This document shows, one piece after another, positions 8,005 through 21,531 of a stretch of 21,531 nucleotides of DNA. The notes beneath the pieces were generated by a model that had not been told where the DNA came from, made no database searches, and saw nothing but the letters and a program-made list of their open reading frames with translations. The stretch comes from a virus. The position numbers and the translations under genes are program-made. How positions within the stretch are numbered: position 1 is the first letter of the stretch; every line of letters starts with the position of its first letter. The stretch covers positions 1-21,531 of the IMG/VR virus record IMGVR_UViG_3300031974_002193. One strand, 5' to 3'.

Positions 8005-8790
8005 ATGTACGGTTTTAAGAATAAGAGTGATGCCATAAAGCTAAAGGGCATCGCTCGTGGGCTAAATGCCCAGACGTATGGAGTCATGGGCGGCAGGACT
8101 CACGGACAAGCTGTTGCCATCGTTCGCATTGGGGCAAGCTCAGGGACTTATGGTGGCGACACACAGATCACTTGGGGTATCAAAGCCCACGACGATTACA
8201 CAGATCCCGAAGACACTGCCGCTAACTTTACTCGCAATGGTATCCTTGGCAAAGAGAAGCTGGACTGGTGCAACGCATTTATCTACAGTTTTGAGAACGA
8301 GGACAAGAGCGAAGAGAACTATGCAGACCAGCGAGAGCGAAAGACTACTGTTCTTGATCCAAAAGAGGACGCTCGCTCTGAGTGGAGCTATGATCCAGCG
8401 ACTTATCCAGACTGGTCAACCAATGGTGACATTGGCGACCGCAAGACAGTCATTGTTCACAATATGTCTGTCGTCCCGTTGATCTATGGCATGATCGTTC
8501 CAGTCTTCAACATGGGCGGCACGTTCATCTATTGTGGAGACCATACAATCTTGGCAAGGACATCAGACGATGGGATCGACTCTGAGACTCATGACATTGT
8601 GAACATAAAATCATGGAACTATGACTCGTCTGTGCCAACCAGCTTTGACTTTGACAACCTATCATTGGGTGCTGCACTCAATGGTAACTATAAAGTCTAT
8701 AACCCGTGGAGTGATGACGTACCGGCCGACACAACGTGTGTGATCGGACAACTCGGTGGCGTCCTATGTGTTCTTGGATGGGAGTGCTAA
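8005..8790 (+). CDS. Putative tail-tip protein, function unknown
   Basis: A 261-residue protein, probably part of the tail tip. The N-terminal 80 residues are Gly-rich with a RIGASSGTYGGDTQITWG stretch; the middle is acidic (KEDARSEW); a hydrophobic strand segment VVPLIYGMIVPVFNMGGTFIYC lies around 158-180, more likely a buried beta sheet than a membrane helix given its Pro and Gly residues. The end (GGVLCVLGWEC) is Cys-bearing and hydrophobic. The ATG is one base after the preceding stop. Expressed in the same operon as the tape measure gene. Family not recognised. Confidence 0.65.
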   Translation: MYGFKNKSDAIKLKGIARGLNAQTYGVMGGRTHGQAVAIVRIGASSGTYGGDTQITWGIKAHDDYTDPEDTAANFTRNGILGKEKLDWCNAFIYSFENEDKSEENYADQRERKTTVLDPKEDARSEWSYDPATYPDWSTNGDIGDRKTVIVHNMSVVPLIYGMIVPVFNMGGTFIYCGDHTILARTSDDGIDSETHDIVNIKSWNYDSSVPTSFDFDNLSLGAALNGNYKVYNPWSDDVPADTTCVIGQLGGVLCVLGWEC

Positions 8791-8791
8791 C

Positions 8792-11092
8792 ATGACTATG
8801 TATGGATGCTGTGGATGTGGATGTGTTGAGGCTATCGAGATAATGAAGGCTGACCTTACATGGTCAACCAGTTCTAAAGTCGCGGTGCTATCTGATCCTG
8901 ATAATATCTTCAGCCTTAACTACATCCCTGCTGGCAAGTCAATCACGTTCAACGTAGAGATTGGGTGTAGTAACTTTGTCTTTGACTGTAGACTTGGCAT
9001 ACCATCACTAACCGCTGCAACAAACGGCAAGGTTAAGGTTGGCAAGTACCTACAGTATAAACATGACGTTCCATACTTTACTCACCCTGATCTAGCTTCA
9101 AACCAGACTGGTGCGGGGGCTACCCTGCACTCTGGCTACAAGACATCGCACTTGTTCATTGGCACAGACGGCGTAGCTAGGACTGACATACGCTTTAGGA
9201 TGAGTGAGCTTGACGGCAACGGCAGCATGTTTGCGATGTCTGGTTTCAAAGACCCTTACCTGACTGGCATATCATCTCAAGCTGAGGACGATAACTATAA
9301 CTCTGCAAACGGTACTGTTAAGAAGCCTTGGGCTTGGAGCGACAACACCTTAGCCATACCTGCTGTTGAAGCTGGCTCAAGGTTCATTCCAATTACCTTT
9401 ACGGCAGGCACAGAGGATTTGTACCCAAAGCAGTCCATCCTTTATGCTGGAGGCAGGTATGCCTTCAGGACTCTGCTTACACCGAATGATGAACTGTGTC
9501 TTGTTAACGATGCTCCATCATCTGCTGACTATGCAAGGACTGTTACTAGCAGCTATAGTAACTCGTTCGTTGACTACGACCCAAACCATCCGTTCGGGGC
9601 AGAGACTATCGACCTTTCACTAAGCATTGACGACAGTGCAAGGGCTGGAGGTGACTGGACATTGATATATGATAAGCACATCTCCTTCAGGACTGGCAGC
9701 GGCGTTACCGCAAACGCCTACACTAGGCTTTACACTGGCGACGACACTGTTAACTGGAATGAAGCGGTGAAGGCGGCTGACGCTGGAGCATTAGATGCTA
9801 CGGCAGGTCAGGCTTCAGAGCTAGCTTCAATGAAGACCCTGTGTGCAGACATCTCTACATGGACGCACGCTACTGAATGTCCAGACCCAACACCGTTCTG
9901 GTATAAAGAGCCAACCTACACATCAACGTGGACTTACTCAGCGACAAACGCAACTGGTGACCCAACCATTGTCCTGTATGCTCCTATTGAGAATCAAGGG
10001 ACTGGTGGGACATTCTATGTGTATGAGAGGCCATACCATCGCGGTGCATACGATGTTAGCCCCGCTGCCTTAAATATGTATCAATATTATGGTGTTGGTG
10101 TTGGATGGACTGTCGCTGTTGATGGCTTTAAGAACTGGGCTGAAAAGTTCGATAGTATTTTTAACTCTACTGTTGATTACACTCAGATGGTTCACAACAT
10201 CAACGACTACCTTGGTCGATTGACCAATGCAAGTCTTGTGACGCCCAATGCTCTCTTCTGTCCAGCGTTCACTTTCATTGAACCTTATGACAACGAGCAG
10301 GACACTAACGGGCCAACTGACATCTACAGAGATCGTCAGTATATTGCAGCTAACACTGCAACGAACATCACGGTGGAGTTATACGCTAGCGATGTTACGT
10401 TAACATTTAAGCGGCTATCGTCTATTAATGACTGGGGCACAGCAGACGAGAACATTACCAACTCCTCTATGGGCCACTATTGGCACAACGCTATCTCTAA
10501 TCACGACATAACGGGAACTACTCGACAGTACCCTTGGTACTCATCTGGAGCTTCTGCAACAGGTGACCTTACTGAGAAGCCTTGGGTTGATCCCTACATA
10601 GACAATGGGCTGACGCCTTACTACCAGATCATGATTAAGGATGGCGTGTTTGAGGTTGTGTCAGCAAAGATCAATGGTACTGACTTTCAAGCATACGATA
10701 TATGCACGTTCTTCGATGGCGACATTTCAGACTCGAGGTATGATTACTTCCATACGCCGATCAACCAATACTGGAATGACCAAACGTCATCACCGTTTGA
10801 TGACTACGAGTTCTATCGGTCTGGCAGGAACATAGTGACCATGACAAAGGATGGCGACTCTGTTGGCTTCAAGCTTGGGATTGGAAGAAGTTCGTCGTTA
10901 ACTGGATACAGGGAAGATCAGTTCCTTGGTGCGATACTGAGCGATGGTACGGTCGTAAGCTTTGACTTAACACCATACCACGACCTGAGGGTTGGGCACG
11001 ACTTAAATAAGTACGGTAAGAAGACTATTGAATTTCCGTACATCTCAGGAGGCACACCTGACGACTTCTTGAAAGTGAGAGTGAGGCACTAA
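8792..11092 (+). CDS. Large tail protein, candidate adhesin / receptor-binding protein
   Basis: The largest protein in the window, 766 residues, last of the big tail genes. It opens with a striking Cys cluster (MTMYGCCGCGCVEA, four Cys in residues 6-11), followed by Tyr/Asp/Thr/Asn-rich, mostly beta sequence with few charged helices, typical of secreted or virion-surface adhesion proteins. No enzymatic motif was seen. The preferred start is the ATG at 8792 with GGGAG at 8780-8784; a GTG at 8756 would overlap the previous gene. The stop overlaps the next gene (TAATG). Position at the distal end of the tail operon makes host recognition the best guess; it could also be a central tail-tip protein. 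Confidence 0.7.
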   Translation: MTMYGCCGCGCVEAIEIMKADLTWSTSSKVAVLSDPDNIFSLNYIPAGKSITFNVEIGCSNFVFDCRLGIPSLTAATNGKVKVGKYLQYKHDVPYFTHPDLASNQTGAGATLHSGYKTSHLFIGTDGVARTDIRFRMSELDGNGSMFAMSGFKDPYLTGISSQAEDDNYNSANGTVKKPWAWSDNTLAIPAVEAGSRFIPITFTAGTEDLYPKQSILYAGGRYAFRTLLTPNDELCLVNDAPSSADYARTVTSSYSNSFVDYDPNHPFGAETIDLSLSIDDSARAGGDWTLIYDKHISFRTGSGVTANAYTRLYTGDDTVNWNEAVKAADAGALDATAGQASELASMKTLCADISTWTHATECPDPTPFWYKEPTYTSTWTYSATNATGDPTIVLYAPIENQGTGGTFYVYERPYHRGAYDVSPAALNMYQYYGVGVGWTVAVDGFKNWAEKFDSIFNSTVDYTQMVHNINDYLGRLTNASLVTPNALFCPAFTFIEPYDNEQDTNGPTDIYRDRQYIAANTATNITVELYASDVTLTFKRLSSINDWGTADENITNSSMGHYWHNAISNHDITGTTRQYPWYSSGASATGDLTEKPWVDPYIDNGLTPYYQIMIKDGVFEVVSAKINGTDFQAYDICTFFDGDISDSRYDYFHTPINQYWNDQTSSPFDDYEFYRSGRNIVTMTKDGDSVGFKLGIGRSSSLTGYREDQFLGAILSDGTVVSFDLTPYHDLRVGHDLNKYGKKTIEFPYISGGTPDDFLKVRVRH

Positions 11093-11364
11093 TGAAGATT
11101 GGATCTGAACTGGCTAAACTCATTCCAGAATGGGCAGTCAAGGACAAGTCGGGCTGTGACTGTAAGTCATGGGTTCGCAAGATGAATAACTGGGGTGAGT
11201 TTGGGGTGAAGATGAACCGAGAGGCAATCATCACTCGACTCACCTCACAACGCAAGAGGCTCATACCCCTCCTTCAGGTGGTTCCAGAGCCCCTCGTAAG
11301 AATAGCGGCAGGTAAGCTATTGGATCAGGCAATCGCCAACGCAAAAAAAGATTCAAGAGCTTGA
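11092..11364 (+). CDS. Small protein with GCxC...MNxWG motif
   Basis: A 90-residue protein of unknown function. Residues 20-40 read SGCDCKSWVRKMNNWGEFGV; the GCxC, then MN-x-WG arrangement recalls small phage and environmental-virus proteins with a Cys-rich motif followed by MNxWG, though the third Cys I would expect after WG is absent here. The remainder is helical and basic and ends in Lys/Ala-rich sequence. It is translationally coupled to the large tail gene (TAATG, with GAGG at 11083-11086) and its TGA stop overlaps the -35 box of the next promoter. Role in the virion or adsorption is only inferred from context. Confidence 0.65.
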   Translation: MKIGSELAKLIPEWAVKDKSGCDCKSWVRKMNNWGEFGVKMNREAIITRLTSQRKRLIPLLQVVPEPLVRIAAGKLLDQAIANAKKDSRA

Positions 11365-11389
11365 CAAGACAAGCCGATCATTGTAGACT
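11361..11389 (+). promoter_or_regulatory. Sigma-70-like promoter nested in the terminator
   Basis: TTGACA (11361-11366), 17-base spacer, TAGACT (11384-11389). The -35 overlaps the previous stop codon. Transcription would begin near 11396, inside the loop of the terminator hairpin, so the new transcript lacks the left arm and cannot form it. The upstream extension TCAAGAGC is shared, with one change, with promoters at 16161 and 19751. It would drive the RusA-like, metallophosphoesterase and SPFH genes. Confidence 0.6.
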
Positions 11390-11432
11390 GTAGGATGTTC
11401 CACCCCTACTGTCTGTGGTGGTCGGCTTTTTT
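11371..11432 (+). terminator. Intrinsic terminator ending the tail operon
   Basis: A long two-part hairpin: outer stem AAGCCGATCA (11371-11380) with TGGTCGGCTT (11419-11428), ten pairs including one G-U; inner stem GACTGTAGG (11386-11394) with CCTACTGTC (11405-11413), one mismatch; ten-base loop; then six T (11427-11432). A promoter overlaps the left arm. Confidence 0.82.
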
Positions 11433-11453
11433 CATTAGCACAAGGAGACTAAA

Positions 11454-11924
11454 ATGCTTGACGGCATTTGCATCGGAGAGATCGAAATCCCGATGAAACT
11501 AAAGAACAATAACCAAGGCCAAGGTCGGCATTGGTCGGGCAGCCACAAAGAGCGTACCACAGCCTCTCAGGCGGTCGCTGAGGCCCGTGTGTGGACTCCT
11601 GCGACTGAACAGTCAAGGACGTGGCAGAGCCTCTCAGAATGGACGAGAGAGCGTCACCTTGGCAAGGACGAGAAGCTAGGCCTTGTGGTCTGGCGAATCC
11701 TTGGCAAGAGGGAAAGGCTCTGGGACGCTGACTCCGTGCTGCGTGGCAATTACAAGCAAATTCAGGATGCCCTGATCGAGGCAGGACTTGCTGAAGACGA
11801 CTCACCCAGATACATTGAGTGGGTGCTGGGTCGTCAGGATGATTCGATCAGAGACCAAGGCCCGAAAGTCTTGGTTGAAGTTTACAGAGTTCCTTTCAAT
11901 TCCGCTTTTAACGAGAGAGTATAA
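11454..11924 (+). CDS. RusA-like Holliday junction resolvase
   Basis: Probably a small nuclease that resolves branched DNA during phage replication and recombination. The 156-residue protein shows the RusA-type acidic pattern: WDADS at 90-94, K101, D105 and DD at 115-116 (DADSVLRGNYKQIQDAL then AEDDSPRYIEW), equivalent to the family's D-x-DN...K...D...DD arrangement, with Ser replacing the usual Asn of DN. Length is a little over the 120-130 usual for RusA, due to an N-terminal extension with NNNQGQGRHW. AGGAG at about 11443-11447 precedes the ATG. First gene of the three-gene operon starting at the nested promoter. The substitution and divergence leave some doubt. Confidence 0.6.
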   Translation: MLDGICIGEIEIPMKLKNNNQGQGRHWSGSHKERTTASQAVAEARVWTPATEQSRTWQSLSEWTRERHLGKDEKLGLVVWRILGKRERLWDADSVLRGNYKQIQDALIEAGLAEDDSPRYIEWVLGRQDDSIRDQGPKVLVEVYRVPFNSAFNERV

Positions 11925-11925
11925 C

Positions 11926-12603
11926 ATGCCTAAGAAGAAAACCGTATTGGTCATCGGCGATACACATTGTCCCTGCATGGTTGACGGCTACGTCGATTTT
12001 TTGCGAGACACTTACAACCGATGGAACTGCAACAAGGTCGTCCACATCGGGGACATTGTTGACAATGCCGCACTCTCATTCCATCTCAAAAAGCCACAGT
12101 TGAAAGACCCGTTGGCTGAGTACGAGAAGGCAATGAAGCAGGTGAAGCTATTGACCAAGGCGTTCCCGAGTGCAGAGTTGCTGATCGGCAACCATGATGC
12201 ACTGCCCTATCGCTGGTGCGACGAGGTAGGAATCCCTGAGTCAATGATGAGAGACTTCGGTTCTATCTTTGGACTTCCTAAGCGTTGGAAGGTTCACCAG
12301 AGGTACGACCAGCTTATCATTGACGACGTGATCTACCAGCACGGCGACAGAGGCAAGTCCTCTGCGATCCTGAACGCCAAGGCGGAGTTCAAGTCGGTAG
12401 TGCAAGGTCATCACCACAGCAAGGCTAGTGTTGATTTCTATTGCAACTTATCGACCCGCATCTTCGGTTGTCAGGTTGGTTGCGGAACTGATTGGAAGCA
12501 CGCTCAAATGGAGTATGGCAAGAAGTACTCTCAGAAGCCAGTTGTGTCCTGTGGGGTCGTCATTGAAGGCCGCACAGCAGTTGTGGAGCCAATGAAGCTA
12601 TGA
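11926..12603 (+). CDS. Calcineurin-like metallophosphoesterase
   Basis: A two-metal phosphoesterase of 225 residues. All core motifs are present in order: GDTH (D12, H14), GDIVDN (D43), GNHD (88-91), HGD (139-141) and GHHHS (161-165), the ligands for the two metal ions. Natural substrates of phage members vary (nucleic acid ends, cyclic nucleotides, proteins) and cannot be read from sequence. The start is the ATG at 11926, one base after the preceding stop; the longer upstream frame is overlap with the RusA-like gene. A Cys-rich section (FGCQVGCGTDW, 180-190) is notable. It overlaps the SPFH gene by four bases (ATGA), so the two are coupled and may act together. Confidence 0.85.
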   Translation: MPKKKTVLVIGDTHCPCMVDGYVDFLRDTYNRWNCNKVVHIGDIVDNAALSFHLKKPQLKDPLAEYEKAMKQVKLLTKAFPSAELLIGNHDALPYRWCDEVGIPESMMRDFGSIFGLPKRWKVHQRYDQLIIDDVIYQHGDRGKSSAILNAKAEFKSVVQGHHHSKASVDFYCNLSTRIFGCQVGCGTDWKHAQMEYGKKYSQKPVVSCGVVIEGRTAVVEPMKL

Positions 12604-13115
12604 GCCTATTCGATCTAATCTCAGGCCTGCTGGAGCCGTTCTTCGCACTCGTGCCAAGGATCGCCCACAGGCCACAGACTAATGAGTGGCTGGTGGTTGA
12701 TAGGTGGTTCGGTCATACCAAGCAGACTGTCAATCCAGTGGTCTACATTCCGGCACTCACTCACGTTGAGTACCTGCCAAAGAATGAGATCCCGATTGAT
12801 TGCGGACTGCAACGCGTGACGACCGCTGACGACCTCTCTGTGGCCGTCAACGCAACGGCGGTCATTCGAGTCATCGATCCAGTCCTGTGTCGTGAGAAGG
12901 CCGCTGACGGCTTCGAGGAGCTATCCAGCATATACATCCGTGGTGTTGTCTGTGATCTGATCAGCGGACACAACTGGAGCTATCTGGGAGAGTTGCTCGA
13001 GCAAGATCGGTACTTCGATGAGATCCACTCAGAGCTTGATTACTACGGCATCGAACTGGTGGCCTTTCAAGTCGAAGACCTCCAGCAAGTCGTTCCACTC
13101 AGTCTTTTACAGTAG
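12600..13115 (+). CDS. Minimal SPFH / band-7 (stomatin-like) domain protein
   Basis: The 171-residue product matches the SPFH core of stomatin, prohibitin and HflK/HflC proteins: a VVDRWFGHTKQTVNP strand pair, LTHVEYLPKNEIPIDC, then TTADDLSVAVNATAVIRVIDP (the family's 'T.D...v.v...v.yrV.Dp' signature, about 74-94), a helix with the 'r.vv...is' pattern, and a final YYGIELVAFQVEDLQ strand. The N-terminal LFDLISGLLEPFFALVPRI (3-21) could anchor it to the membrane. Cellular SPFH proteins are about 250-350 residues and have a coiled-coil tail; here only the SPFH domain is left. SPFH proteins scaffold membrane microdomains and modulate the FtsH protease; any such role here is inference. A terminator follows. 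Confidence 0.72.
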   Translation: MSLFDLISGLLEPFFALVPRIAHRPQTNEWLVVDRWFGHTKQTVNPVVYIPALTHVEYLPKNEIPIDCGLQRVTTADDLSVAVNATAVIRVIDPVLCREKAADGFEELSSIYIRGVVCDLISGHNWSYLGELLEQDRYFDEIHSELDYYGIELVAFQVEDLQQVVPLSLLQ

Positions 13116-13121
13116 TTTTTG

Positions 13122-13148
13122 AACCCAGAAGAAATTCTGGGTTTTTTT
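13122..13148 (+). terminator. Intrinsic terminator after SPFH gene
   Basis: Perfect 9-bp stem AACCCAGAA / TTCTGGGTT with a GAAA loop (13131-13134), then a run of seven T ending at 13148. A promoter begins 12 bases downstream. Confidence 0.9.
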
Positions 13149-13159
13149 ATGGATTGTTG

Positions 13160-13187
13160 TTGACGCTCTGGCCGATAGCTGTATAAT
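13160..13187 (+). promoter_or_regulatory. Promoter P1, TTGACG-16-TATAAT
   Basis: TTGACG (13160-13165), 16-base spacer, perfect TATAAT (13182-13187). It lies between a terminator and the 106-codon gene at 13231, with a short leader of about 36 bases ending in GGAG. The upstream ATTGTTG is shared with promoter P2. Confidence 0.85.
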
Positions 13188-13230
13188 GAAGGCACACGAG
13201 ACGAAAACAAACTAACACGGAGACGAGAAA

Positions 13231-13551
13231 ATGACTGACCGACTTAAAGTTGATTTTGTTGATTTCGGAACACACGACGGTCGAACATGGGGAGTTGAAG
13301 CCTCCACTGAGTTCGGACATCGTTTTCATCACCCACACGTTTTCGATTCAGAAGCTCAGGCTCATGCGTTCGTTAAGAAGGTAGAGCGAGTAGGTTCTAT
13401 AGATACATCACTTTGGACTCAGGGACATCCATGTTACGGCTCTGACGCTTTCGTAGCTCAGGAGCGACAAGCACACGCTTGGGCTCAGTCGATACGAGCA
13501 GGTCATTGCTCAGAAGAGCAGGTTCCTGATAGTTTAAGAACTTTGCTTTAA
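13231..13551 (+). CDS. Small hypothetical protein, His-rich
   Basis: A 106-residue protein I do not recognise. It has nine His residues, several in FGHRFHHPHVF (28-38), and a middle with acidic/aromatic turns; a helix rich in Ala/Gln (QERQAHAWAQSIRAG) precedes the C-terminus. No membrane segment. It is expressed from its own near-consensus promoter with GGAG at 13219-13222, at the head of a block of small genes, which is the usual arrangement of early phage genes that alter host functions. The upstream leader and the first codons (ATG ACT GAC) match those of the gene at 13813, although the proteins are unrelated beyond that. Confidence 0.75.
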   Translation: MTDRLKVDFVDFGTHDGRTWGVEASTEFGHRFHHPHVFDSEAQAHAFVKKVERVGSIDTSLWTQGHPCYGSDAFVAQERQAHAWAQSIRAGHCSEEQVPDSLRTLL

Positions 13552-13566
13552 TTTTAAAAATTGTTG

Positions 13567-13594
13567 TTGACAGGCGATGCCCCCGCCTTATAAT
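13567..13594 (+). promoter_or_regulatory. Promoter P2, TTGACA-16-TATAAT with AT-rich upstream region
   Basis: TTGACA (13567-13572) and TATAAT (13589-13594) are both perfect, 16 bases apart. An AT-rich stretch from 13547 to 13563 (TTTAATTTTAAAAATTG) looks like an UP element. It transcribes the long leader before the gene at 13813 and is the strongest-looking promoter in the window. Confidence 0.87.
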
Positions 13595-13606
13595 AGGGGC
13601 ATACGA

Positions 13607-13787
13607 GGGACGGTCGCTGTTAAACGACGCCAAACAAATATCTGGGGGTGGCGTCCCCAGCAGGATGGACAGCACTGTAAGAAATGGCACGAACAGGATA
13701 AACGGACTGAGCCAACGCTAGACACGGCTCGACTCGCTTCCTTCCCGAAGGGGACACGGTAACGTGAATAAGGCCTTCCCTCTTTTC
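13607..13787 (+). ncRNA. Candidate structured leader RNA inserted in module P2
   Basis: About 180 bases separate promoter P2 from the ribosome site of the gene at 13813; the sister module P1 lacks this block but shares both flanks (GGCAYACGAG before, ACAAACTAAC after). I see several hairpins: CTGGGG / CCCCAG (13642-13647, 13655-13660); GAGCC / GGCTC (13709-13713, 13726-13730); CCTT / AAGG with a CCCG loop (13740-13751); and CACG / CGTG closing a GUAA (GNRA) tetraloop (13755-13766). Alternative pairings GACGCC / GGCGTC (13626-13631, 13650-13655) and GGGACG / CGTCCC (13607-13612, 13652-13657) exclude the first hairpin and could form a switch. No credible ORF or tRNA lies inside. It might be a regulatory leader, a small RNA, or an antitermination element. 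No known RNA family was recognised. Confidence 0.42.
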
Positions 13788-13812
13788 ACAAACTAACCAC
13801 GGAGACAAGACC

Positions 13813-14040
13813 ATGACTGACATAACACTTCACGCGATAACGTTCCACAAAGTAACGAAAGTAACGCACTGGCGTAAGAAGGATGGCAGCAAGCTGGTTC
13901 TTGAGTTGGCTGACGGACGCCAGTTCATAACCAAGGACGCTCTCATGAGATGGACTGCCGAGAGCTTCGGCAGAGAGATAAAGCGTAACGGACACGTCAG
14001 CAGCAAGAATCTTTTCAATAATTGGCAAGAATTAGTGTAG
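13813..14040 (+). CDS. Small hypothetical protein
   Basis: A 75-residue basic protein with a beta-hairpin-like start (ITFHKVTKVTHWRKKDGSKLVLELADGRQF), a helix (DALMRWTAESFGREIKR) and a short tail. Not recognised; the size and pattern would suit a small DNA- or protein-binding inhibitor, but there is no diagnostic motif. GGAG at 13801-13804 is in the same leader sequence as the gene at 13231. It is the only gene served by the long P2 leader and is followed within a few bases by the next promoter, so it is probably a single-gene transcription unit unless there is read-through. Confidence 0.72.
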   Translation: MTDITLHAITFHKVTKVTHWRKKDGSKLVLELADGRQFITKDALMRWTAESFGREIKRNGHVSSKNLFNNWQELV

Positions 14041-14065
14041 ACAGACACTTTGTATGCCGTATAAT
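14038..14065 (+). promoter_or_regulatory. Promoter P3, TAGACA-16-TATAAT
   Basis: TAGACA (14038-14043) overlaps the previous stop codon; TATAAT is at 14060-14065. The spacer begins GACACTTTG, also found at the same place before P4, and both have CGTATAATA around the -10 box. Confidence 0.75.
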
Positions 14066-14106
14066 ACCTATGTAACGCGAAACAAACCACTCACTGGAGA
14101 ATAGAG

Positions 14107-14328
14107 ATGAGCGAGAACAAGAGAGTACGAGAAGCACAGAAGTTCGGTGGCGTAGGACTTGGCAGCAAGGTTAAGTTGGAAGTCATGCTAGAAAGCGGCA
14201 GGCTATTCACTAGCAACGCTACCTTCACCCATGAAGACGCTGAGCACAAGTTGCAAAGGCTCTTAGAGAATGGTGTTCACTCCGTAGCCTTGAGGCAAGA
14301 GTGGACTTTTACTGGAGTTCAAAGATAA
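14107..14328 (+). CDS. Small hypothetical protein
   Basis: A 73-residue protein with a Lys/Arg/Glu-rich start, two beta strands (KVKLEVMLESGRLFTSNATF), a helix with HEDAEHKLQRLLENG and a last strand VALRQEWTF. This alpha/beta order is reminiscent of small phage regulatory or anti-host proteins, but I cannot assign a family. GGAG at 14096-14099 precedes the ATG, within a 36-base leader from promoter P3. Another promoter follows the stop at once. Confidence 0.72.
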   Translation: MSENKRVREAQKFGGVGLGSKVKLEVMLESGRLFTSNATFTHEDAEHKLQRLLENGVHSVALRQEWTFTGVQR

Positions 14329-14334
14329 TTCCAC

Positions 14335-14363
14335 TTGCTGGACACTTTGGTTGTGCGTATAAT
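14335..14363 (+). promoter_or_regulatory. Promoter P4, TTGCTG-17-TATAAT
   Basis: TTGCTG (14335-14340), 17-base spacer starting GACACTTTG, TATAAT at 14358-14363. Spacer and leader resemble those of P3, so the two control regions look like copies of one module placed before different genes. Confidence 0.72.
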
Positions 14364-14403
14364 AGCAGTGTAAGGCAAAGACAACTCAACTCAGGAGAGA
14401 ACG

Positions 14404-14649
14404 ATGAACTACGAAACTTTGATCAGCGGACTGAAAGCACTCGTGGCAGAAGCCAATCGTCACCTCGAGTCCATCGCAGAAGACCTTGAGGCCGCAGAGG
14501 AGCGTGAGAAGCAGGCTGTCCGAGATGGGCGGTGGGATCTGATCCTCTGCGAGCGTGACCGGATCTCAAAGCTGCGAGACAGCCAGAGAATCTGGTTCGG
14601 ACGTGCAATCAGCAACCTAGATCGAATCAACGACATTCAAGGAGCATAA
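14404..14649 (+). CDS. Small hypothetical coiled-coil protein
   Basis: An 81-residue, almost entirely helical protein: Leu/Ile at heptad-like spacing with many Glu, Arg and Ala (ALVAEANRHLESIAEDLEAAEE...), a Trp-Asp break near the middle, then a second helix (ISKLRDSQRIWFGRAISNL). It probably forms a dimeric helical hairpin. No function can be assigned. AGGAG at 14393-14397 is well placed. It shares a promoter (P4) with the following 65-codon gene, three bases downstream. Confidence 0.72.
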   Translation: MNYETLISGLKALVAEANRHLESIAEDLEAAEEREKQAVRDGRWDLILCERDRISKLRDSQRIWFGRAISNLDRINDIQGA

Positions 14650-14651
14650 CC

Positions 14652-14849
14652 ATGAGCGATTACCGAGTACAAGTCCTTCAGGACATCAACCGTGAGAACC
14701 GTGCCAAGCTACGCCACATCGAGTGGCAGGCTGGCAATGCGTGGGGCGAAGTCCGCAAGGCATTCGAGGAGCGTGCTGCCGACCTCCGTGAGGAGATCAA
14801 GGACGTTAGCCGCCAGATTCGTGGAGAGGAGTTCACTTATGAAAGCTGA
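14652..14849 (+). CDS. Small hypothetical charged helical protein
   Basis: A 65-residue protein rich in Arg, Glu and Asp and predicted helical throughout (LQDINRENRAKLRHIEWQ, then FEERAADLREEIKDVSRQIRG). GGAG at 14641-14644 lies within the end of the preceding gene, so the two are co-translated. The composition is like that of its upstream neighbour, and the two might interact, but this is a guess. Its stop overlaps the start of a 24-codon ORF. Confidence 0.68.
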   Translation: MSDYRVQVLQDINRENRAKLRHIEWQAGNAWGEVRKAFEERAADLREEIKDVSRQIRGEEFTYES

Positions 14850-14913
14850 AGAATCTTTTGAGATTTTACTGGACATACTACGCAGCGAGCGTATAATTGC
14901 GACAGAGAGATGA
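14839..14913 (+). CDS. Possible 24-codon micro-ORF
   Basis: ATG at 14839 follows AGAGGAG (14825-14831) at a usable distance and encodes MKAEESFEILLDILRSERI plus five residues, an acidic amphipathic helix. It overlaps the preceding gene's end and covers promoter P5. It could be a real microprotein or simply the coding shadow of the promoter; I rate it as uncertain. Confidence 0.25.
   Translation: MKAEESFEILLDILRSERIIATER
14870..14897 (+). promoter_or_regulatory. Promoter P5, TGGACA-16-TATAAT
   Basis: TGGACA (14870-14875), 16 bases, TATAAT (14892-14897), with the same GCGTATAAT context as P4. It serves the genes from 14939 onwards. Confidence 0.75.
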
Positions 14914-14938
14914 GAGTCACCTAACTAAGGAGTTTACA

Positions 14939-15157
14939 ATGTGCAGCAGAACCAACGACCTGAAGGCGGTCAAGCGTCAGGTTATCGCACTGAAGAAGAT
15001 TTACGTCGGACTCAGCGATACCTGTGCTGATCGATACCACGAGGATCAGTCCAACAAGTACAGCCTTGGCAAAGCTCAAGCGTACCGTCAAGCATCTGAA
15101 GCGTTCGATGACTTGAGAGTTTTAATCAACAACCTAATAGAAGGAGAAGCAGAGTGA
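14939..15157 (+). CDS. Small hypothetical helical protein
   Basis: A 72-residue protein with two or three helices (DLKAVKRQVIALKKIYVGL and KAQAYRQASEAFDDLRVLINNLIEG) and two Cys. I chose the ATG at 14939 with AAGGAG just before it rather than a TTG at 14897 that lies inside the -10 region of P5. Function not recognised. The gene overlaps the next by four bases (GTGA), opening a chain of coupled small genes that runs to about 16.4 kb. Confidence 0.7.
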   Translation: MCSRTNDLKAVKRQVIALKKIYVGLSDTCADRYHEDQSNKYSLGKAQAYRQASEAFDDLRVLINNLIEGEAE

Positions 15158-15360
15158 GTAGGTATGACTTCAAGGTTTACTCTTTCATTGACGACAAGAA
15201 TAGAGTAAGATGGGCGTATGACATTCGCGACACACAGGATGTCATCATGTGGCACGGGGAGTATCTCCCCGAGCTTGTGGAGGAATCTGCTAGTAGCTGG
15301 GCGACAGACTCAGCGGCAGAACGTAACGCGGAAGCACGAGTTAAGGAGTTAAATAAATGA
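15154..15360 (+). CDS. Small hypothetical protein, GTG start
   Basis: A 68-residue protein starting with GTG, supported by AAGGAG at 15141-15146. The first half is beta-like with many aromatic residues (YDFKVYSFIDDKNRVRWAYDI), the second an acidic/alanine-rich helix. It ends in KELNK, a by-product of the GGAGTTAAATAAATGAG junction that also supplies the ribosome site for the next gene. Function unknown. Confidence 0.7.
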   Translation: MSRYDFKVYSFIDDKNRVRWAYDIRDTQDVIMWHGEYLPELVEESASSWATDSAAERNAEARVKELNK

Positions 15361-15361
15361 G
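15345..15361 (+). repeat. Repeated stop-start junction, copy 1
   Basis: GGAGTTAAATAAATGAG supplies the ribosome site, the end of one gene and the start of the next. An identical copy lies at 15542-15558 at the following gene boundary. Confidence 0.7.
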
Positions 15362-15557
15362 AGACGTAGAGTCACTTTACAAATACTTCTTCACGAAGTA
15401 TAATCAACCTAACCCTTGCGACATAAACACGCCAGAGAAGTTGGCCTTCTTCAAATCCCTTGAATGGGAAGACGTGAAGGCAATGCAGCGTGCACGCAAG
15501 AAAGGCGAGCTGTTCACTAAGTTGTCATGGTTTCAATCACAGGAGTTAAATAAATGA
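15357..15557 (+). CDS. Small hypothetical protein
   Basis: A 66-residue, aromatic-rich protein (YKYFFTKYNQP near the start; FTKLSWFQSQELNK at the end) with no recognised family. The ATG overlaps the previous stop (ATGA), and its own last codons repeat the same GGAGTTAAATAAATGAG junction. A promoter-like TTTACA-17-TATAAT and a 7-bp inverted repeat lie inside its 5' part. Confidence 0.68.
   Translation: MRDVESLYKYFFTKYNQPNPCDINTPEKLAFFKSLEWEDVKAMQRARKKGELFTKLSWFQSQELNK
15376..15404 (+). promoter_or_regulatory. Possible internal promoter with operator-like inverted repeat
   Basis: TTTACA (15376-15381), 17 bases, TATAAT (15399-15404). ATACTTC (15383-15389) and GAAGTAT (15395-15401) form a 7-bp inverted repeat with a 5-base centre that runs into the -10 box. 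It lies in coding sequence and may be chance. Confidence 0.4.
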
Positions 15558-15558
15558 G
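15542..15558 (+). repeat. Repeated stop-start junction, copy 2
   Basis: Identical 17-base copy of the junction at 15345-15361. Both upstream proteins end in ELNK because of it, although the genes are otherwise unlike. Confidence 0.7.
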
Positions 15559-15817
15559 CGGTATCCAAACATGGTCACGTGGCGAGACCTACCCTGCCAC
15601 AGTAGTTTGCGTCGGTGGCTTCCCAACTGTTGACAATGACGCAACAGCGGAAGTCTGGTACCGAGGAGTCAAGATCAAAGGCTACAGTTGCCATGCAACT
15701 GCCGAGTTGATCGCCAAGCACCTTGCTTGCCACGAGAAGCACCTTGGTGCAACCAAGGCTCTTGCCCGAGCAGAGGCCTTGGCTAACTGGCAGAAGGCTG
15801 GACTCTTTGGAGAATAG
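15554..15817 (+). CDS. Small hypothetical protein
   Basis: An 87-residue protein: a beta-rich N-terminal half (TYPATVVCVGGF, then ATAEVWYRGVKIKGYSC) followed by an Ala/His-rich helix (TAELIAKHLACHEKHLG) and a second helix. The shape is compact and cytoplasmic. No function recognised. It is coupled to the preceding gene through the shared ATGA overlap and is followed after one base by a tiny membrane-protein gene. Confidence 0.7.
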   Translation: MSGIQTWSRGETYPATVVCVGGFPTVDNDATAEVWYRGVKIKGYSCHATAELIAKHLACHEKHLGATKALARAEALANWQKAGLFGE

Positions 15818-15818
15818 C

Positions 15819-15968
15819 ATGAGCTACGCGTTGATACTGATCCCTACTGTCTGCTACTTCGGGCAGGCAGTAGTTAACCTTCAGCAGAAGGACTATCCAC
15901 ACGCACTGATATGGTTCTGCTATTCAGTTGCTAACTTAGGTTTTATTTGGTACGAATTGGAGAAGTAA
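15819..15968 (+). CDS. Tiny predicted membrane protein, two hydrophobic segments
   Basis: A 49-residue protein with a hydrophobic N-terminal segment (SYALILIPTVCYFGQAVVNL) and a second one (ALIWFCYSVANLGFIWYEL) around a short polar QQKDYPH turn, so probably a hairpin in the membrane. Such proteins are common in phage early regions and often have unknown roles. The start at 15819 is chosen because GGAG lies just upstream; the longer frame is the shadow of the previous gene. Its TAA overlaps the next ATG. Confidence 0.68.
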   Translation: MSYALILIPTVCYFGQAVVNLQQKDYPHALIWFCYSVANLGFIWYELEK

Positions 15969-16411
15969 TGTTAAGGTCATTCGAGATTAACGCCGATAAC
16001 TATGTTGAGTCGGTGAGACAGATGAGAACCATTGCCGACTCGACTGAAACATCGTCAGAGGCAATGGTGATCCGCAAGACGGCTACCACGATTGAGAAGT
16101 TCATGGAGTCGTCAGCAACTGAAGAAGAACTGGAGGCACTTTCATATTTAAATCAGGAGCTTGACAGCAAACGCGTATTAGTGTATGCTGATACTATTGA
16201 AGGGGCGGTTGAGTACGAATACATGCTCACTGCCAAAGATGGCAACAACTACGAACGCAACGAGCTTAGTAGTCGTAGCAACTTCCCCTTGCTTACTGAA
16301 AAAGATATTTACACACGAGCCGAGGAGGTTAGATTAAAACGAGATGAGTATTCTGAGTCAGGCGACTACTGGGAAGATCAAGAAGCCGAAGAAGATTATG
16401 ATCTATGGTGA
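15968..16411 (+). CDS. Hypothetical acidic protein
   Basis: A 147-residue, strongly acidic protein. The first 70 residues look helical with heptad-like Met/Ile/Leu; the last 20 are nearly all Glu, Asp, Tyr and Trp. No family recognised; a highly acidic tail is seen in DNA-mimic and SSB-like proteins, but that is only an analogy. The start at 15968 overlaps the preceding stop (TAATG). The 3' 68 bases overlap the ATPase gene in another frame, and a strong promoter lies within it at 16161. Confidence 0.68.
   Translation: MLRSFEINADNYVESVRQMRTIADSTETSSEAMVIRKTATTIEKFMESSATEEELEALSYLNQELDSKRVLVYADTIEGAVEYEYMLTAKDGNNYERNELSSRSNFPLLTEKDIYTRAEEVRLKRDEYSESGDYWEDQEAEEDYDLW
16161..16189 (+). promoter_or_regulatory. 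Promoter within coding sequence, TTGACA-17-TATGCT
   Basis: TTGACA (16161-16166), 17-base spacer, TATGCT (16184-16189). It is preceded by TCAGGAGC, giving a 14-base exact match with the promoter at 19751. It would serve the Sak4-like and SSB-like genes. Confidence 0.55.
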
Positions 16412-17051
16412 ACACGCAACGGGGAAGTCAACTTGTGCAAGCAAGTTCAACAACTCCATCTTCCTTGCAACGGAAGAGGGCACCAATGAGATCGACTGTA
16501 CGAGGGTTAAGCTCACGAAAGCTGTTGATGTTTTAAAGGCAGCAAGTGAGTGTGCGGAAAGCGAGTTCGACACTATAGTGTTGGACTCTGCTGACTGGTT
16601 CGAGAAACTGATTGATGAGGCTCTTAGAGAGGAGAACTTTAAGACAGACTACGGCAAAGGCGTGGTCGAGGTTGCTAGACGATTCTGTAGGTTGCTAGAC
16701 GCCTTCGATAAATGTATCGACGCGGGCAAGACAGTGATCCTCTTAGCACACCAAGAGATCCGCAAAGCTGAAGACATTGCTGGGAACCAGTGGGACGTTA
16801 TTCGGCCCAAGCTCAGCAAGAAAGCTTGCGAGCGAGTCATGGAGTGGTGCGACATTATTGTTCACGCCAAGCATGAAGTGTTCGTTAGGCAAGAGGATGG
16901 TGACTTTGGGCGTACCAAGGGAATCGCAACGACAACTGGGAGACGTATTCTCAGCAGTCAACCTCACCCGAGTTATGTAGCCAAGAGTCGCGTTGACTTG
17001 CCAGCTACGATTGATCAAAACGATTTCGCATCTTTAATTCAAGGAAACTGA
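16344..17051 (+). CDS. Sak4-like RecA-fold ATPase (single-strand annealing family)
   Basis: A 235-residue phage nucleotide-binding protein of the AAA_24/Sak4 kind, RecA-core annealases that act with an SSB in phage recombination. The start KIKKPKKIMIYGEHATGKST contains Walker A at 22-30; Walker B is FDTIVLDSADW, with D81; a further strand VILLAHQEI (about 132-140) carries the polar sensor position. Length is typical of Sak4. The chosen ATG at 16344 overlaps the previous gene by 68 bases, with a GAGGAGG upstream but at a long distance; a start at 16398 would remove residues just before Walker A. The ssDNA-binding gene follows by four bases, the usual pairing. Confidence 0.78.
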   Translation: MSILSQATTGKIKKPKKIMIYGEHATGKSTCASKFNNSIFLATEEGTNEIDCTRVKLTKAVDVLKAASECAESEFDTIVLDSADWFEKLIDEALREENFKTDYGKGVVEVARRFCRLLDAFDKCIDAGKTVILLAHQEIRKAEDIAGNQWDVIRPKLSKKACERVMEWCDIIVHAKHEVFVRQEDGDFGRTKGIATTTGRRILSSQPHPSYVAKSRVDLPATIDQNDFASLIQGN

Positions 17052-17055
17052 GACC

Positions 17056-17514
17056 ATGAGTGACTTCAACAACATCTTCGACGGTATCACCGCAGACAAC
17101 GCTGGCACACCTTCTTTCGAGAACAAGCCAGTGCCACCAGCCGAGTATCACCTGAGCGTGGTCAACGCTGAGCTTCGAACCAGCAAGACCGGTAACCCAT
17201 ACGTCTCTGTCCAGTACCGCATTGAGGACGGACAGGAGTGTGCTAACCGCCGGATCTTTGAGATCTATATGCTGGGTGGCAACGCCACAAGCGTTAACAT
17301 CGCCAAAAAGAGCTTGAGCGTGTTGACCAAGGCGGCAGGCCACGACCAGTTGGCTGACCCAAGCCAGTTGATCGGGGCTCACCTCTGGGGTGAAGTAACC
17401 ATCGAGGCAGGCCGTGATGGATATGACGACAAGAACCGCATCAGGTGGGTCAACGTCTATACCGGCCAGCAGGCAGAGAAGTCTGACACAGCAGACGACT
17501 TCGACGCTTTCTAA
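17056..17514 (+). CDS. Single-stranded DNA-binding protein, DUF669-like
   Basis: A 152-residue protein resembling the DUF669 group of phage ssDNA-binding proteins. It has a PPAEYHLSVVNAELRTSKTGNPYVSVQYRI beta-strand set (OB-fold-like), a NRRIFEIYML strand, a helix with KAAGHD, the strand HLWGEVTI and a turn with DGYDDKNRIRWV. The C-terminal twelve residues are acidic and end in DDFDAF, like the SSB tip that recruits partner proteins. It covers ssDNA during replication or recombination and sits directly after its probable partner, the Sak4-like ATPase. A terminator follows. Confidence 0.8.
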   Translation: MSDFNNIFDGITADNAGTPSFENKPVPPAEYHLSVVNAELRTSKTGNPYVSVQYRIEDGQECANRRIFEIYMLGGNATSVNIAKKSLSVLTKAAGHDQLADPSQLIGAHLWGEVTIEAGRDGYDDKNRIRWVNVYTGQQAEKSDTADDFDAF

Positions 17515-17533
17515 TCTTATCCTGTTTGTTTTT

Positions 17534-17568
17534 GAGCCACCTTCTTAACAGGGGGTGGCTCTCTTTTT
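17534..17568 (+). terminator. Intrinsic terminator after SSB-like gene
   Basis: Stem GAGCCACC (17534-17541) with GGTGGCTC (17554-17561), 12-base loop, followed by TCTTTTT. The next gene begins 12 bases on with no clear promoter between, so read-through is probably needed for the helicase. Confidence 0.85.
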
Positions 17569-17579
17569 GGAGTTACGTA

Positions 17580-17792
17580 ATGAAATCGCACAAGGACATC
17601 CTGCTGGATCTGTTCCTGCAACTGACTGACTACACAGCTAAGGATGTTGCTTGGACGAACTACAGCCCCGCACTCTTCGCCGTTGAAGACTTCGCTATGC
17701 TGCGAGTCATGACGAAGTGCGGTAACTACTACAGCTTCAGCAATGACGCTGGCAACTTTCACCTGATAAAACATGAGGCAAAGAATGAGTAA
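17580..17792 (+). CDS. Small hypothetical protein
   Basis: A 70-residue protein with a helical start (HKDILLDLFLQLTDY), a Tyr/Ser/Pro middle and a strand pair (CGNYYSFSNDAGNFHLIKH). No family recognised. The ATG at 17580 is preceded by GGAG just after the terminator's T-run; upstream in-frame codons lie in the terminator. It overlaps the following ORF by 8 bases. Confidence 0.65.
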   Translation: MKSHKDILLDLFLQLTDYTAKDVAWTNYSPALFAVEDFAMLRVMTKCGNYYSFSNDAGNFHLIKHEAKNE

Positions 17793-18072
17793 CGGCAAGG
17801 GAGACCGTAACAGGTCTAATCCAAGAAACTTTAGAGATGGTTGGGAAGCAATTAGATGGAGAGATTTAAATGAAGATAACGCCAAGGGATTACCAGAGGG
17901 CATCAGTGGAGGCAATGAAGGCCTACGCCAAGAACAACCCTCCAGAGAGTCACGCCTACGTAGAGTTGCCAACTGGATCTGGAAAGTCTGTCGTGATAGC
18001 AGACTTCTGCGAGCAGTTAGTGCGTGCTGGAAAGCGTGTCTTGGTACTCTGCCGACAGGGAGAACTCGTTAA
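17785..18072 (+). CDS. GKGDRNR-type small phage protein with long overlap
   Basis: The first 32 residues (MSNGKGDRNRSNPRNFRDGW, then EAIRW) match a small phage protein type that starts with a Gly-Lys-Gly-Asp-Arg motif and ends soon after an aromatic-x-x-Ile-aromatic block. Here the frame stays open for 95 codons and its last 203 bases overlap the helicase in another frame. The part after about residue 33 is Arg/Gly/Ser/Leu-rich and looks like an unselected shadow, perhaps because an older stop was lost. The start ATG at 17785 has GGCA/AAGA-type purines only. Function of the motif family is unknown to me. Confidence 0.5.
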   Translation: MSNGKGDRNRSNPRNFRDGWEAIRWRDLNEDNAKGLPEGISGGNEGLRQEQPSRESRLRRVANWIWKVCRDSRLLRAVSACWKACLGTLPTGRTR

Positions 18073-19741
18073 GCAGAACGCCGAGAGGCTCGAGCAGCTT
18101 GCCGATGGGGTTAAGGTCGGGATCTACTCGGCCTCACTTGGCCGCAAGGATGTTGACGCTGACGTGATCTTCGGGACAGTGCAGTCCGTCGCTCGCAGCG
18201 TACACAACCTTGGCCGAGTGAACTGCATCCTTGTCGATGAGTGTCACCAGATCGCACCTAAGGCCGATAGCCAGTACGGCAAGGTCGTCAGTGAGATCCG
18301 TAAGTATCAACCCAAGTGTAGGCTGTTCGGGCTCACAGCGAGCCCCTACAGGACTTCCAGCGGGATGATCCACGGTGACGGCAAGATCTTCGACGAGTGC
18401 TGCTACCAAGTGCCACTCCAGAAGATGCTCGACGATGGCCACATCAGTCCTTGGACTCTGCCTGATGTTGATCAGGTGGATCTGAGCAATGTCCACATCA
18501 AAGGTGGCGAGTACGATATCGAAGAGATGTCTGACGCGTTCATCGAAAAGGTGGAGGACAACGCCAGAGAGATTCTGGGGCTCTGTGAGGGCCGTAGACG
18601 CGTCCTAGTGTTCGCATCCAGCATAGCACACGCTAACGCGTTGTCGCTCGTTCTGGGGCGTTCTGGGGCTCACACGAGCATCGTTACTGGGGACACTCAC
18701 CGGAAGCAGAGAGAGGCGAGACTGGCGGCTTTCACAAGCAACCATCCCAAGCAGTTGATCATGATCAACGTGGGGGTCTTGACGACCGGCTTTGACGCAC
18801 CCAACGTAGACGCTGTGGTGTTGTGCAGGGCTACCAAGTCGGCAGGGCTCTTTTACCAGATCCTTGGTCGCGGTATGAGACGCTGTGAAGGCAAGACGGA
18901 CTTCCTCGTTCTGGACTTCGGGGGCAACTTCGATGAACACGGAGATCCGACTGACCCTAACTTTGGACGAAGTGAGCGAGAGGCCAAACGGCTTATGTGC
19001 AACGCCTGCAAGGTATTCGCACCTGCCGAGGACTGTCGGTGCCCTGAGTGCGGCGTAGTCTTGGACTTCAAGGACTGCCCTGCTTGTGGCAACCTCGAGC
19101 CAAGGGATGCACGCAAGTGTACCGCAAAGAAAGACCCTGAGGACTTGTTCTCAGAGCTATGTGAGTTCGACTTCTTAGCCAAGAGGTGCCGGAACGTGAA
19201 GCCAGACGCGTCAGAGTGTCTAGCTATTGTTACTGAAGAGGATGAAATCTGCCAAGAGTGCCAAAACGCAATAGATCGAGCCCTCCAAGAGGGAAAAACA
19301 TTAAAGAATAGTTGCGTAAAAGCCGAAAAATATTGGTGGAAGGTAGACGAAGTGGAGTATAATCTCCACAAGCCCAAGGATGAGGGCAAGCCACCTAGCC
19401 TGAGAGTCGTTTACAAGTGCGTCCGAGAGGAGACTGACGACCTCATCGGGCAGAAGGTGGCACTGAGGGGACGGTTTATGGAGTGGATTTGCTTCGAGCA
19501 TGAGGGCTTCGCCCAAGGCCGAGCGAGGAAATGGTGGGGAGAGTCGTCAAGCTCTATCTGCCCTGACTCGGTGGCTGAGGCTGAGCTTCTCATCTCCAAG
19601 GGAGCCATTCGGGAGCCGTTCCTGATCCTGACACAGGCCGATGGCAAGTGGCAGAGGATAATCCAGCGGAAATTCAATCAGGACAAGCCTGATCGAGTTT
19701 TCCTTGATTTTGAAGAAGAAGACGATGATTGTCCGTTCTAA
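17870..19741 (+). CDS. SF2 DNA helicase with zinc-ribbon and SSB-like C-terminal tip
   Basis: A 623-residue helicase that would unwind or remodel DNA using ATP. Visible motifs: Q-like TPRDYQ (4-9), Walker A LPTGSGKS (33-40), DECH box (123-126), TASPYR (156-161), NVGVLTTGFDAP (300-311) and motif VI QILGRGMRR (330-338). A Cys-rich zinc region follows (C377, C380, C389, C391, C394, C403, C406, C417). A C-terminal domain has WICFEHEGFAQGRARKWW, seen in other phage helicases, and the protein ends EEEDDDCPF, close to the bacterial SSB tip DDDIPF. RecG/UvsW-like roles in replication fork handling are plausible. ATG at 17870 with GGAGAG upstream. Confidence 0.88.
   Translation: MKITPRDYQRASVEAMKAYAKNNPPESHAYVELPTGSGKSVVIADFCEQLVRAGKRVLVLCRQGELVKQNAERLEQLADGVKVGIYSASLGRKDVDADVIFGTVQSVARSVHNLGRVNCILVDECHQIAPKADSQYGKVVSEIRKYQPKCRLFGLTASPYRTSSGMIHGDGKIFDECCYQVPLQKMLDDGHISPWTLPDVDQVDLSNVHIKGGEYDIEEMSDAFIEKVEDNAREILGLCEGRRRVLVFASSIAHANALSLVLGRSGAHTSIVTGDTHRKQREARLAAFTSNHPKQLIMINVGVLTTGFDAPNVDAVVLCRATKSAGLFYQILGRGMRRCEGKTDFLVLDFGGNFDEHGDPTDPNFGRSEREAKRLMCNACKVFAPAEDCRCPECGVVLDFKDCPACGNLEPRDARKCTAKKDPEDLFSELCEFDFLAKRCRNVKPDASECLAIVTEEDEICQECQNAIDRALQEGKTLKNSCVKAEKYWWKVDEVEYNLHKPKDEGKPPSLRVVYKCVREETDDLIGQKVALRGRFMEWICFEHEGFAQGRARKWWGESSSSICPDSVAEAELLISKGAIREPFLILTQADGKWQRIIQRKFNQDKPDRVFLDFEEEDDDCPF
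19352..19369 (+). promoter_or_regulatory. TATAAT framed by a perfect 6-bp inverted repeat
   Basis: GTGGAG, TATAAT, CTCCAC lie back to back at 19352-19369 within the helicase gene. No good -35 box sits at the right distance (best TTGGTG, 19 bases away), so promoter activity is doubtful; it may be an operator-like palindrome or chance. Confidence 0.2.
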
Positions 19742-19750
19742 TTCAGGAGC

Positions 19751-19779
19751 TTGACAAAGTGTCGTCAATATGATAACAT
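19751..19779 (+). promoter_or_regulatory. Promoter for protease operon, TTGACA-17-TAACAT with extended -10
   Basis: TTGACA (19751-19756), 17-base spacer, TAACAT (19774-19779), preceded by TG at 19771-19772 as in extended -10 promoters. TCAGGAGC before the -35 is shared with the promoter at 16161. It starts after the helicase stop and drives the protease and two further genes. Confidence 0.6.
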
Positions 19780-19798
19780 GGTAGTTTCGCAGGAGCTT

Positions 19799-19829
19799 AG
19801 GGGGTGGGCACAGACTGATGCCGCCCCCT
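19799..19829 (+). promoter_or_regulatory. Hairpin in the protease mRNA leader
   Basis: AGGGGGTGGGCA (19799-19810) pairs with TGCCGCCCCCT (19819-19829): 11 pairs with one bulged G and one G-U, and a CAGACTGA loop. CTCTCTT follows rather than a T-run, so it is at best a weak terminator; it may stabilise the 5' end of the mRNA. CAGGAGCTT occurs just before it (19790-19798) and again at the promoter (19744-19752). Confidence 0.55.
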
Positions 19830-19873
19830 CTCTTGCCCAATCCGCACACACAACAAACAGGAGCAGACAGAAT

Positions 19874-20575
19874 ATGCGGAATCTCATCTTAATTGCGGCA
19901 CTTTTGGCACCCGTAGGAAACTACATTGACAACGGGTTCTATCTCATTCGTGCCTCCGTGGAGCCCGTAGCTCCTACACAGCAATCCATCGAAGCGGCCA
20001 ACACTGTGGTCGGTATCGAGTGTTCTAACGGGCTTGGATCTGCAACCCATATCGGGAATGGCCTCTTCATCTCAGCACACCACGTCGTTGATGGCTGTGA
20101 GAATGAGCCTATCGCTATCGTTGACCACCACCTCGAGAAGTTCTACAAGGGCAAGGTTGTGGCTTTCGACGTGCCTTCGGATCTTGTATTGATCAAGGCA
20201 GACAACCCCAACAAGGTCGTCACGCCAGTGGCACGAGTCGGCTGGGATGATCCTGTCGAAGGCGAGTATGTTCACGGCGTTGGCTTCGGGGTGTCCTACA
20301 GTGACAACCGAGCGGGCTGTGAGCGGCGTCTCTGGAGCGGCATTGTGTCCGACTACACAGACAACATCGGGGGAGAGCAACCGAACTGCATCCAATCCAC
20401 AAATCCAGCAATTCCTGGAGATAGTGGCGGGGCATTGTTCAACGACAGAGGGGAATTGATCGGGGTCATTCACGCGACCGATTACATCCACACCTACTCC
20501 ATCAGAACCGCGTGTATTCACAAACTGCTAAGAAGGTACGAACATGCTGAGCAGAAAGAAGCGGCGACAAGCTGA
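19874..20575 (+). CDS. Exported trypsin-like serine protease (S1 fold)
   Basis: A 233-residue protease with the chymotrypsin-fold catalytic triad: H70 in SAHHVVDG, D103 in PSDLVLIK and S184 in PGDSGGALF, plus GVGFGVS and the GVIHATDY strand typical of the fold. The N-terminus MRNLILIAALLAPVG is a short hydrophobic signal or anchor, so it is likely periplasmic or membrane-linked. Five Cys (C50, C75, C149, C172 and one near the end) could form disulfides, consistent with export. The start at 19874 has AGGAG before it; the longer frame upstream is leader sequence. It overlaps the next gene by 32 bases. Host-envelope damage, processing of virion or membrane proteins, or superinfection control are possible roles. 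Confidence 0.85.
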   Translation: MRNLILIAALLAPVGNYIDNGFYLIRASVEPVAPTQQSIEAANTVVGIECSNGLGSATHIGNGLFISAHHVVDGCENEPIAIVDHHLEKFYKGKVVAFDVPSDLVLIKADNPNKVVTPVARVGWDDPVEGEYVHGVGFGVSYSDNRAGCERRLWSGIVSDYTDNIGGEQPNCIQSTNPAIPGDSGGALFNDRGELIGVIHATDYIHTYSIRTACIHKLLRRYEHAEQKEAATS

Positions 20576-20810
20576 AGACATCGCTGCGGCCAACTTTGAC
20601 AGGGCTGGCCAGTATTACCGCACTGACGTTAACAACCACAAGCGGTTAGCGAAGGAGTGGACTAAGGACGACATCGAAGCACTCAGGGATGGCTTCGGGC
20701 AACAGTACGGAAGCATCCTTACGAGCATCCTGATCAGCATCATGATGAAGATTGCCTTCAAGCTGATCGAGAAGTGGATTCAAAACAAAATCGATGACCT
20801 TTTGGAGTAA
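20544..20810 (+). CDS. Small hypothetical protein with one hydrophobic segment
   Basis: An 88-residue protein starting with a basic MLSRKKRRQ and an acidic/polar helix, with a hydrophobic stretch SILTSILISIMMKIAFKLI (57-75) followed by an amphipathic tail. It may be a membrane-associated partner or substrate of the protease, or a holin-like lysis protein; the single segment and charged ends would be compatible with either, and neither is shown. The start lies within the protease gene (32-base overlap). Confidence 0.68.
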   Translation: MLSRKKRRQAEDIAAANFDRAGQYYRTDVNNHKRLAKEWTKDDIEALRDGFGQQYGSILTSILISIMMKIAFKLIEKWIQNKIDDLLE

Positions 20811-20816
20811 AGAGAA

Positions 20817-21509: not shown

Positions 21510-21520
21510 GAGCCGTTGTT

Positions 21521-21526
21521 TTGACA
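21521..21526 (+). promoter_or_regulatory. Possible -35 box at the window edge
   Basis: TTGACA preceded by GTTGTT, close to the ATTGTTG context of P1 and P2. The -10 region would lie outside the window, so this is only suggestive. Confidence 0.25.
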
Positions 21527-21531
21527 TGCCA

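Follow-up and report, generated by a model that had tools for sequence, protein, structure and literature searches.

A candidate structured RNA heading an early transcript in two related tailed phages

The window, by which we mean the whole stretch of DNA analysed here, comprises positions 1-21531 (21,531 bases) of IMG/VR virus record IMGVR_UViG_3300031974_002193. It derives from an uncultivated phage, whose proteins include capsid, tape-measure, Band-7, AAA (Sak4-like) and helicase proteins, and ARAGORN detected neither tRNA nor tmRNA genes in it. Searches with the AAA and Band-7 proteins yielded the relatives L003, L004, L005, L006, L007, L083, L087 and L088. The tail-region proteins encoded at 8756-11092, as well as those of L004 and L005, are rich in cysteine either at the N-terminus, which is of the CCGCGC type, or in repeats. 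The SPFH/Band-7 protein gene (12600-13115) adjoins a metallophosphoesterase gene, an arrangement conserved in L003, L004, L006 and L083. It is followed by a terminator (13121-13144) and by two promoters, each of which has one small gene behind it; these promoters and the leader elements described below lie on the plus strand.

Promoter 1 (TTGACG-16-TATAAT), together with a short leader, spans 13160-13230 and precedes a gene for a 106-aa protein (13231-13551). Its sister, the sigma-70-type promoter 2 (TTGACA-16-TATAAT, 13567-13594), agrees with the consensus at 12 of 12 positions and is the only such match within 11000-21531. The first gene downstream of promoter 2 encodes a small early protein of 75 amino acids (13813-14040), which has no Pfam match and weakly resembles the products of the first small genes of L003 and L005; the sole match of a search with this protein, in L002, was rejected as spurious. 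Four of the small early genes possess a sigma-70 promoter of their own (13160-13187, 13567-13594, 14038-14065 and 14870-14897); the spacer measures 16 bp in every case, and GGCAYACGAG is the initial transcribed sequence behind both the first and the second of these promoters. The same promoter family occurs in L003, L005 and L083. Further downstream, a strong terminator (17534-17561) separates the DUF669 gene from the gene that follows it within the early operon, and L003 has its equivalent at the same place with a different stem sequence.

Leader 1 (13188-13230) is 43 nt long and leader 2 (13595-13812) 218 nt, a difference of 175 nt. Besides the promoter-proximal GGCAYACGAG and the RBS-proximal ACAAACTAAC and GGAGAC, the comparison aligns GGCACACGAG with GGCATACGAG and AACAAACTAAC with CACAAACTAAC, followed in both leaders by CGGAGACRAGA and by the first three codons, ATGACTGAC. 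The RBS-proximal leader ACAAACTAACCACGGAGACAAGACC (13787-13812), common to leader 1, and the start codon are retained behind the additional block, which thus lies in the 5' UTR and is neither duplicated in nor similar to any other part of the window. These observations bear out much of an earlier, sequence-only reading, which had described two leaders with common ends and first codons, about 180 extra bases in the second, a location behind the strongest promoter and the absence of a credible ORF. On the plus strand, a frame of 60 amino acids occurs only once, and it begins inside the promoter.

Folding predictions bound the unit better at 13605-13782 (178 nt) than at the 13607-13787 first proposed. 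The predicted fold is a multi-branched domain closed by helix P1 (13605-13610/13777-13782 and 13612-13615/13772-13775). In its interior, P2 (13616-13620/13669-13673) encloses P3 (13626-13632/13649-13655), so that this arm spans 13616-13673. P3 (-11.1 kcal/mol) and an alternative hairpin, CUGGGG/CCCCAG (13642-13647/13655-13660; -10.0 kcal/mol), are mutually exclusive. The P4/P5 hairpin domain (AGGA..UGAGCC-loop-GGCUCG..UCCU, 13695-13742) is followed by two small hairpins of high pair probability (13743-13766), UCCC-GAAG-GGGA and CACG-GUAA-CGUG, the latter (13755-13766) with a GNRA tetraloop. The hairpins, the tetraloop and the exclusive pairings noticed in the sequence-only reading are thus all recovered by prediction, the hairpins and the tetraloop with high pair probability. 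However, the stability of the block is unremarkable (MFE z = -1.0 against shuffles; subdomains z -1.3 to -1.9), and a long-range helix with 10 of 11 pairs, as good as P1, arises in 24 of 150 shuffles. The sequence of the window alone therefore proves nothing about structure, and what lifts the block above chance is its homologue.

This homologue resides in IMG/VR contig 3300031974_000758 (L083); the Band-7 proteins of L083 and the window are 96% identical. The copy (TATAATGAAGGCATCGAGGGACGGTCGCTGC..., L083:6608-6755) is located directly behind the early promoter that follows Band-7, a promoter of the same family as promoter 2 with a diverged spacer, and is cut off by the end of the contig at block position 148. 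This end, at 6755, thus lies within the block. Assemblies may break in this way at sequence common to several strains; L007, from the same sample, resumes at approximately the equivalent of window position 15230. Judged from the -10 box, the RNA would start 3-4 nt ahead of P1 in both phages, which in the window places the predicted start and the unpaired leader bases at 13601-13604, 7 nt from TATAAT.

Over the 148 nt the two copies are 94.6% identical, with 8 substitutions, and the 60-nt run 13687-13746, which contains the P4/P5 domain, is the same in both phages. In the neighbouring aligned region, 148-nt windows have a median identity of 88%, only 9 of 246 (the best 4%) reaching the level of the block, and third positions of the Band-7 gene are approximately 81% identical. 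Two of the substitutions, T13620C and A13669G, affect both sides of a single P2 pair and convert U-A into C-G. The others fall into the P3 loop (A13634T), a junction (T13685G, G13686A), the loop of the first small hairpin (G13747A, A13749T), which keeps its CCC/GGG stem, and a position unpaired in the centroid structure (C13657T) that becomes a G-U pair in the alternative hairpin, which hence stays possible. Relative to a reference structure that was predicted from the window sequence only, and hence not fitted to L083, no predicted pair is broken among 28-34 testable pairs, and one compensatory double change is observed. This joint outcome was reached in 0.55% (MFE structure) or 0.81% (centroid) of base-matched permutations (P ~0.006-0.008); a shuffle control of the structure pairs is powerless with two sequences. 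By codon position, the substitutions in the block are distributed 2/3/3 in every frame, compared to 4/2/33 in the Band-7 gene (P 0.003).

The block looks like a real folded RNA, since its sequence is nearly unchanged in a second phage, where both partners of one base pair have been exchanged. The comparison supports a functional structured RNA, with one compensatory pair in two sequences over the first 148 nt, a stretch that leaves P1 aside; one such pair is thin evidence. Homologues that keep a reading frame instead of base pairs, or that lack compensatory changes, had been named as grounds for abandoning an RNA interpretation, and L083 displays the opposite: its pairs are kept, one of them through a compensatory change, and no reading frame is maintained. 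A brief or atypical coding region, or the remnant of a decayed gene, is a most improbable explanation. Stop-free frames of 40-60 codons do exist, but they have no start codon with an RBS, the substitutions are not biased towards third positions, and no similarity to other sequence of the window is found.

The Rfam search proposed with the sequence-only reading identified no family: against the Rfam 15 covariance models the block reaches no gathering cut-off and has no match even at relaxed thresholds (E 10), and a 17-nt xanthine riboswitch fragment (E 3.3) lies outside the block and was dismissed as an unrelated chance match. Comparison by blastn with phages and plasmids returned nothing or two chance matches, and none of the collections of phages, plasmids and genomes gave a true match. 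Patterns of 16 and 19 letters from the block recovered only L083 (listed as L094) and four chance hits in unrelated sequence, and a 21-nt pattern from the 3' end had no exact match in IMG/VR; an 18-mer pattern hit two MAG contigs in GTDB genomes, both unrelated. A covariance model of the block, R1, retrieved only the window and L083 among 45 loci, a third match (E 3) being rejected for its poor fit. The block was not found in 294 genomes of one bacterial phylum that was picked after a chance hit, a result that says little; the Band-7 gene had no match in genome contigs. The block may thus be regarded as a new candidate structured phage leader or small RNA, known in two copies and not yet a family.

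In L003, L004, L005 and L006, four relatives whose flanking genes are in the same order, the leaders are short and the block is absent. The corresponding position of L003, whose AAA protein is 88% identical to that of the window, carries a promoter of the same type and the short leader TATAATAGAGGCATAAGAGGAAACAACAACACAACGGAGGC. In L083 there is no copy of the 106-aa gene between Band-7 and the block, which follows the first promoter. The sister leaders of the window do differ by the block, yet its insertion into one of them, as originally envisaged, is doubtful and not the only possible history, because the L083 block stands directly behind the post-Band-7 promoter. A cassette consisting of leader 1, gene 13231-13551 and promoter 2 may have been added in the lineage of the window or lost in that of L083, which explains the data equally well. 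Since L003 is devoid of the block, the element may have been gained in the common ancestor of the window and L083 or else lost in L003.

Several known RNAs resemble the block in part. The put RNAs of phage HK022 are cis-acting antitermination leaders of about 65-70 nt with two stem-loops, and like the block they are found right at the beginning of early transcripts of a phage, which makes them a candidate for a similar mode of action. However, they are shorter than the 178-nt block and no sequence match was found; moreover, the block seems dispensable for passing the terminator at 17534-17561, because L003 has an equivalent terminator and no block. 5'-terminal stem-loops of the ompA type stabilise mRNA, a single short hairpin being sufficient. 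As in the block, their 5' end is base-paired and few unpaired bases precede the stem, whereas the block is a 178-nt multi-branched domain with conserved sequence. The manA and wcaG motifs are candidate cis-regulatory RNAs in 5' UTRs of cyanophage and marine metagenome sequences, where they precede metabolic genes (PMC2864571). They, too, are structured domains in 5' UTRs of phage genes discovered by comparative sequence analysis, but the Rfam scan revealed no sequence or structure match, and the block precedes a small early phage gene. GOLLD and ROOL are phage-borne structured RNAs of hundreds of nucleotides, often found near tRNA islands (PMC12286853); both are much larger than the block, which is likewise phage-borne, lacks an Rfam match to them and lies in a window without tRNA genes.

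We tentatively favour, at somewhat less than even confidence, a conserved, transcribed structured RNA that forms the 5' end of an early transcript in a small group of tailed phages and acts in cis. Transcription from the strongest early promoter would start 3-4 nt ahead of P1, and the nascent RNA would fold into the multi-branched domain that P1 closes; downstream of this domain, the short remainder of the leader would be unstructured and leave the ribosome-binding site open. The paired 5' end might shield the early mRNA against 5'-end-dependent decay; alternatively or additionally, a phage or host factor, such as RNA polymerase or an RNA-binding protein, might read the fold. Several points weigh against a role in cis: comparative support is thin, as one of the two sequences ends at position 148 and P1 is not covered; the folding energy is near that of shuffles; and the 178-nt element is larger than simple 5' protection requires. 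Furthermore, any cis role is dispensable within the group, given that leader 1 and the relatives L003-L006 do without the block.

The main rival, possible but rather unlikely, is a discrete non-coding phage RNA of about 180 nt that acts in trans, owes its 3' end to processing or to partial termination at the UUUU that follows P1 and leaves the downstream gene to read-through only. In its favour, the predicted transcription start is at the closing helix, the block goes with the promoter and not with one gene order (in L083 it stands behind promoter 1), and it contains no recognisable expression platform. Yet a plus-strand terminator-like site is found neither in nor after the block, where there are only four U, and the next gene (13813-14040) lacks a promoter of its own and has its RBS leader in common with leader 1. 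A more specific and distinctly unlikely proposition is a new class of structured phage RNA, made early and abundantly from the strongest promoter, that would target a host machine in trans (RNA polymerase, the ribosome or a defence system) and so far be confined to one narrow lineage. A regulated, riboswitch-like or protein-binding leader, with P3 and the CUGGGG/CCCCAG hairpin as its two states, appears improbable. The two hairpins are nearly equal in energy and both can still form in L083, but no terminator accompanies the block, no Rfam riboswitch matches it and the RBS is not predicted to be hidden: its unpaired probability in the thermodynamic prediction is 0.60 with and 0.64 without the block. 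A classical riboswitch is therefore unsupported, whether a transcriptional riboswitch or attenuator or a translational riboswitch. Among the functions initially considered (regulatory RNA, switch, ribozyme or small RNA), a functional structured RNA holds up through the pairs kept in L083, while the switch and the ribozyme, the latter without an Rfam match, find no support. Very improbable, finally, is a DNA-level site (a replication origin, packaging or recombination site) with inverted repeats conserved as DNA. The block is conserved non-coding phage DNA with inverted repeats and adjoins the position where the gene orders of the window and L083 differ; the GNRA tetraloop, the G-U pairs in helices and the exact placement at the predicted transcription start nevertheless suit an RNA better, and the block is missing from four relatives that agree with the window in flanking gene order.

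Few structured RNAs are known at the head of early transcripts of phages, and those few are poorly catalogued. The block adds a defined, testable unit of 178 nt with independent support from a second phage, and it could seed a new RNA family if more relatives are found.
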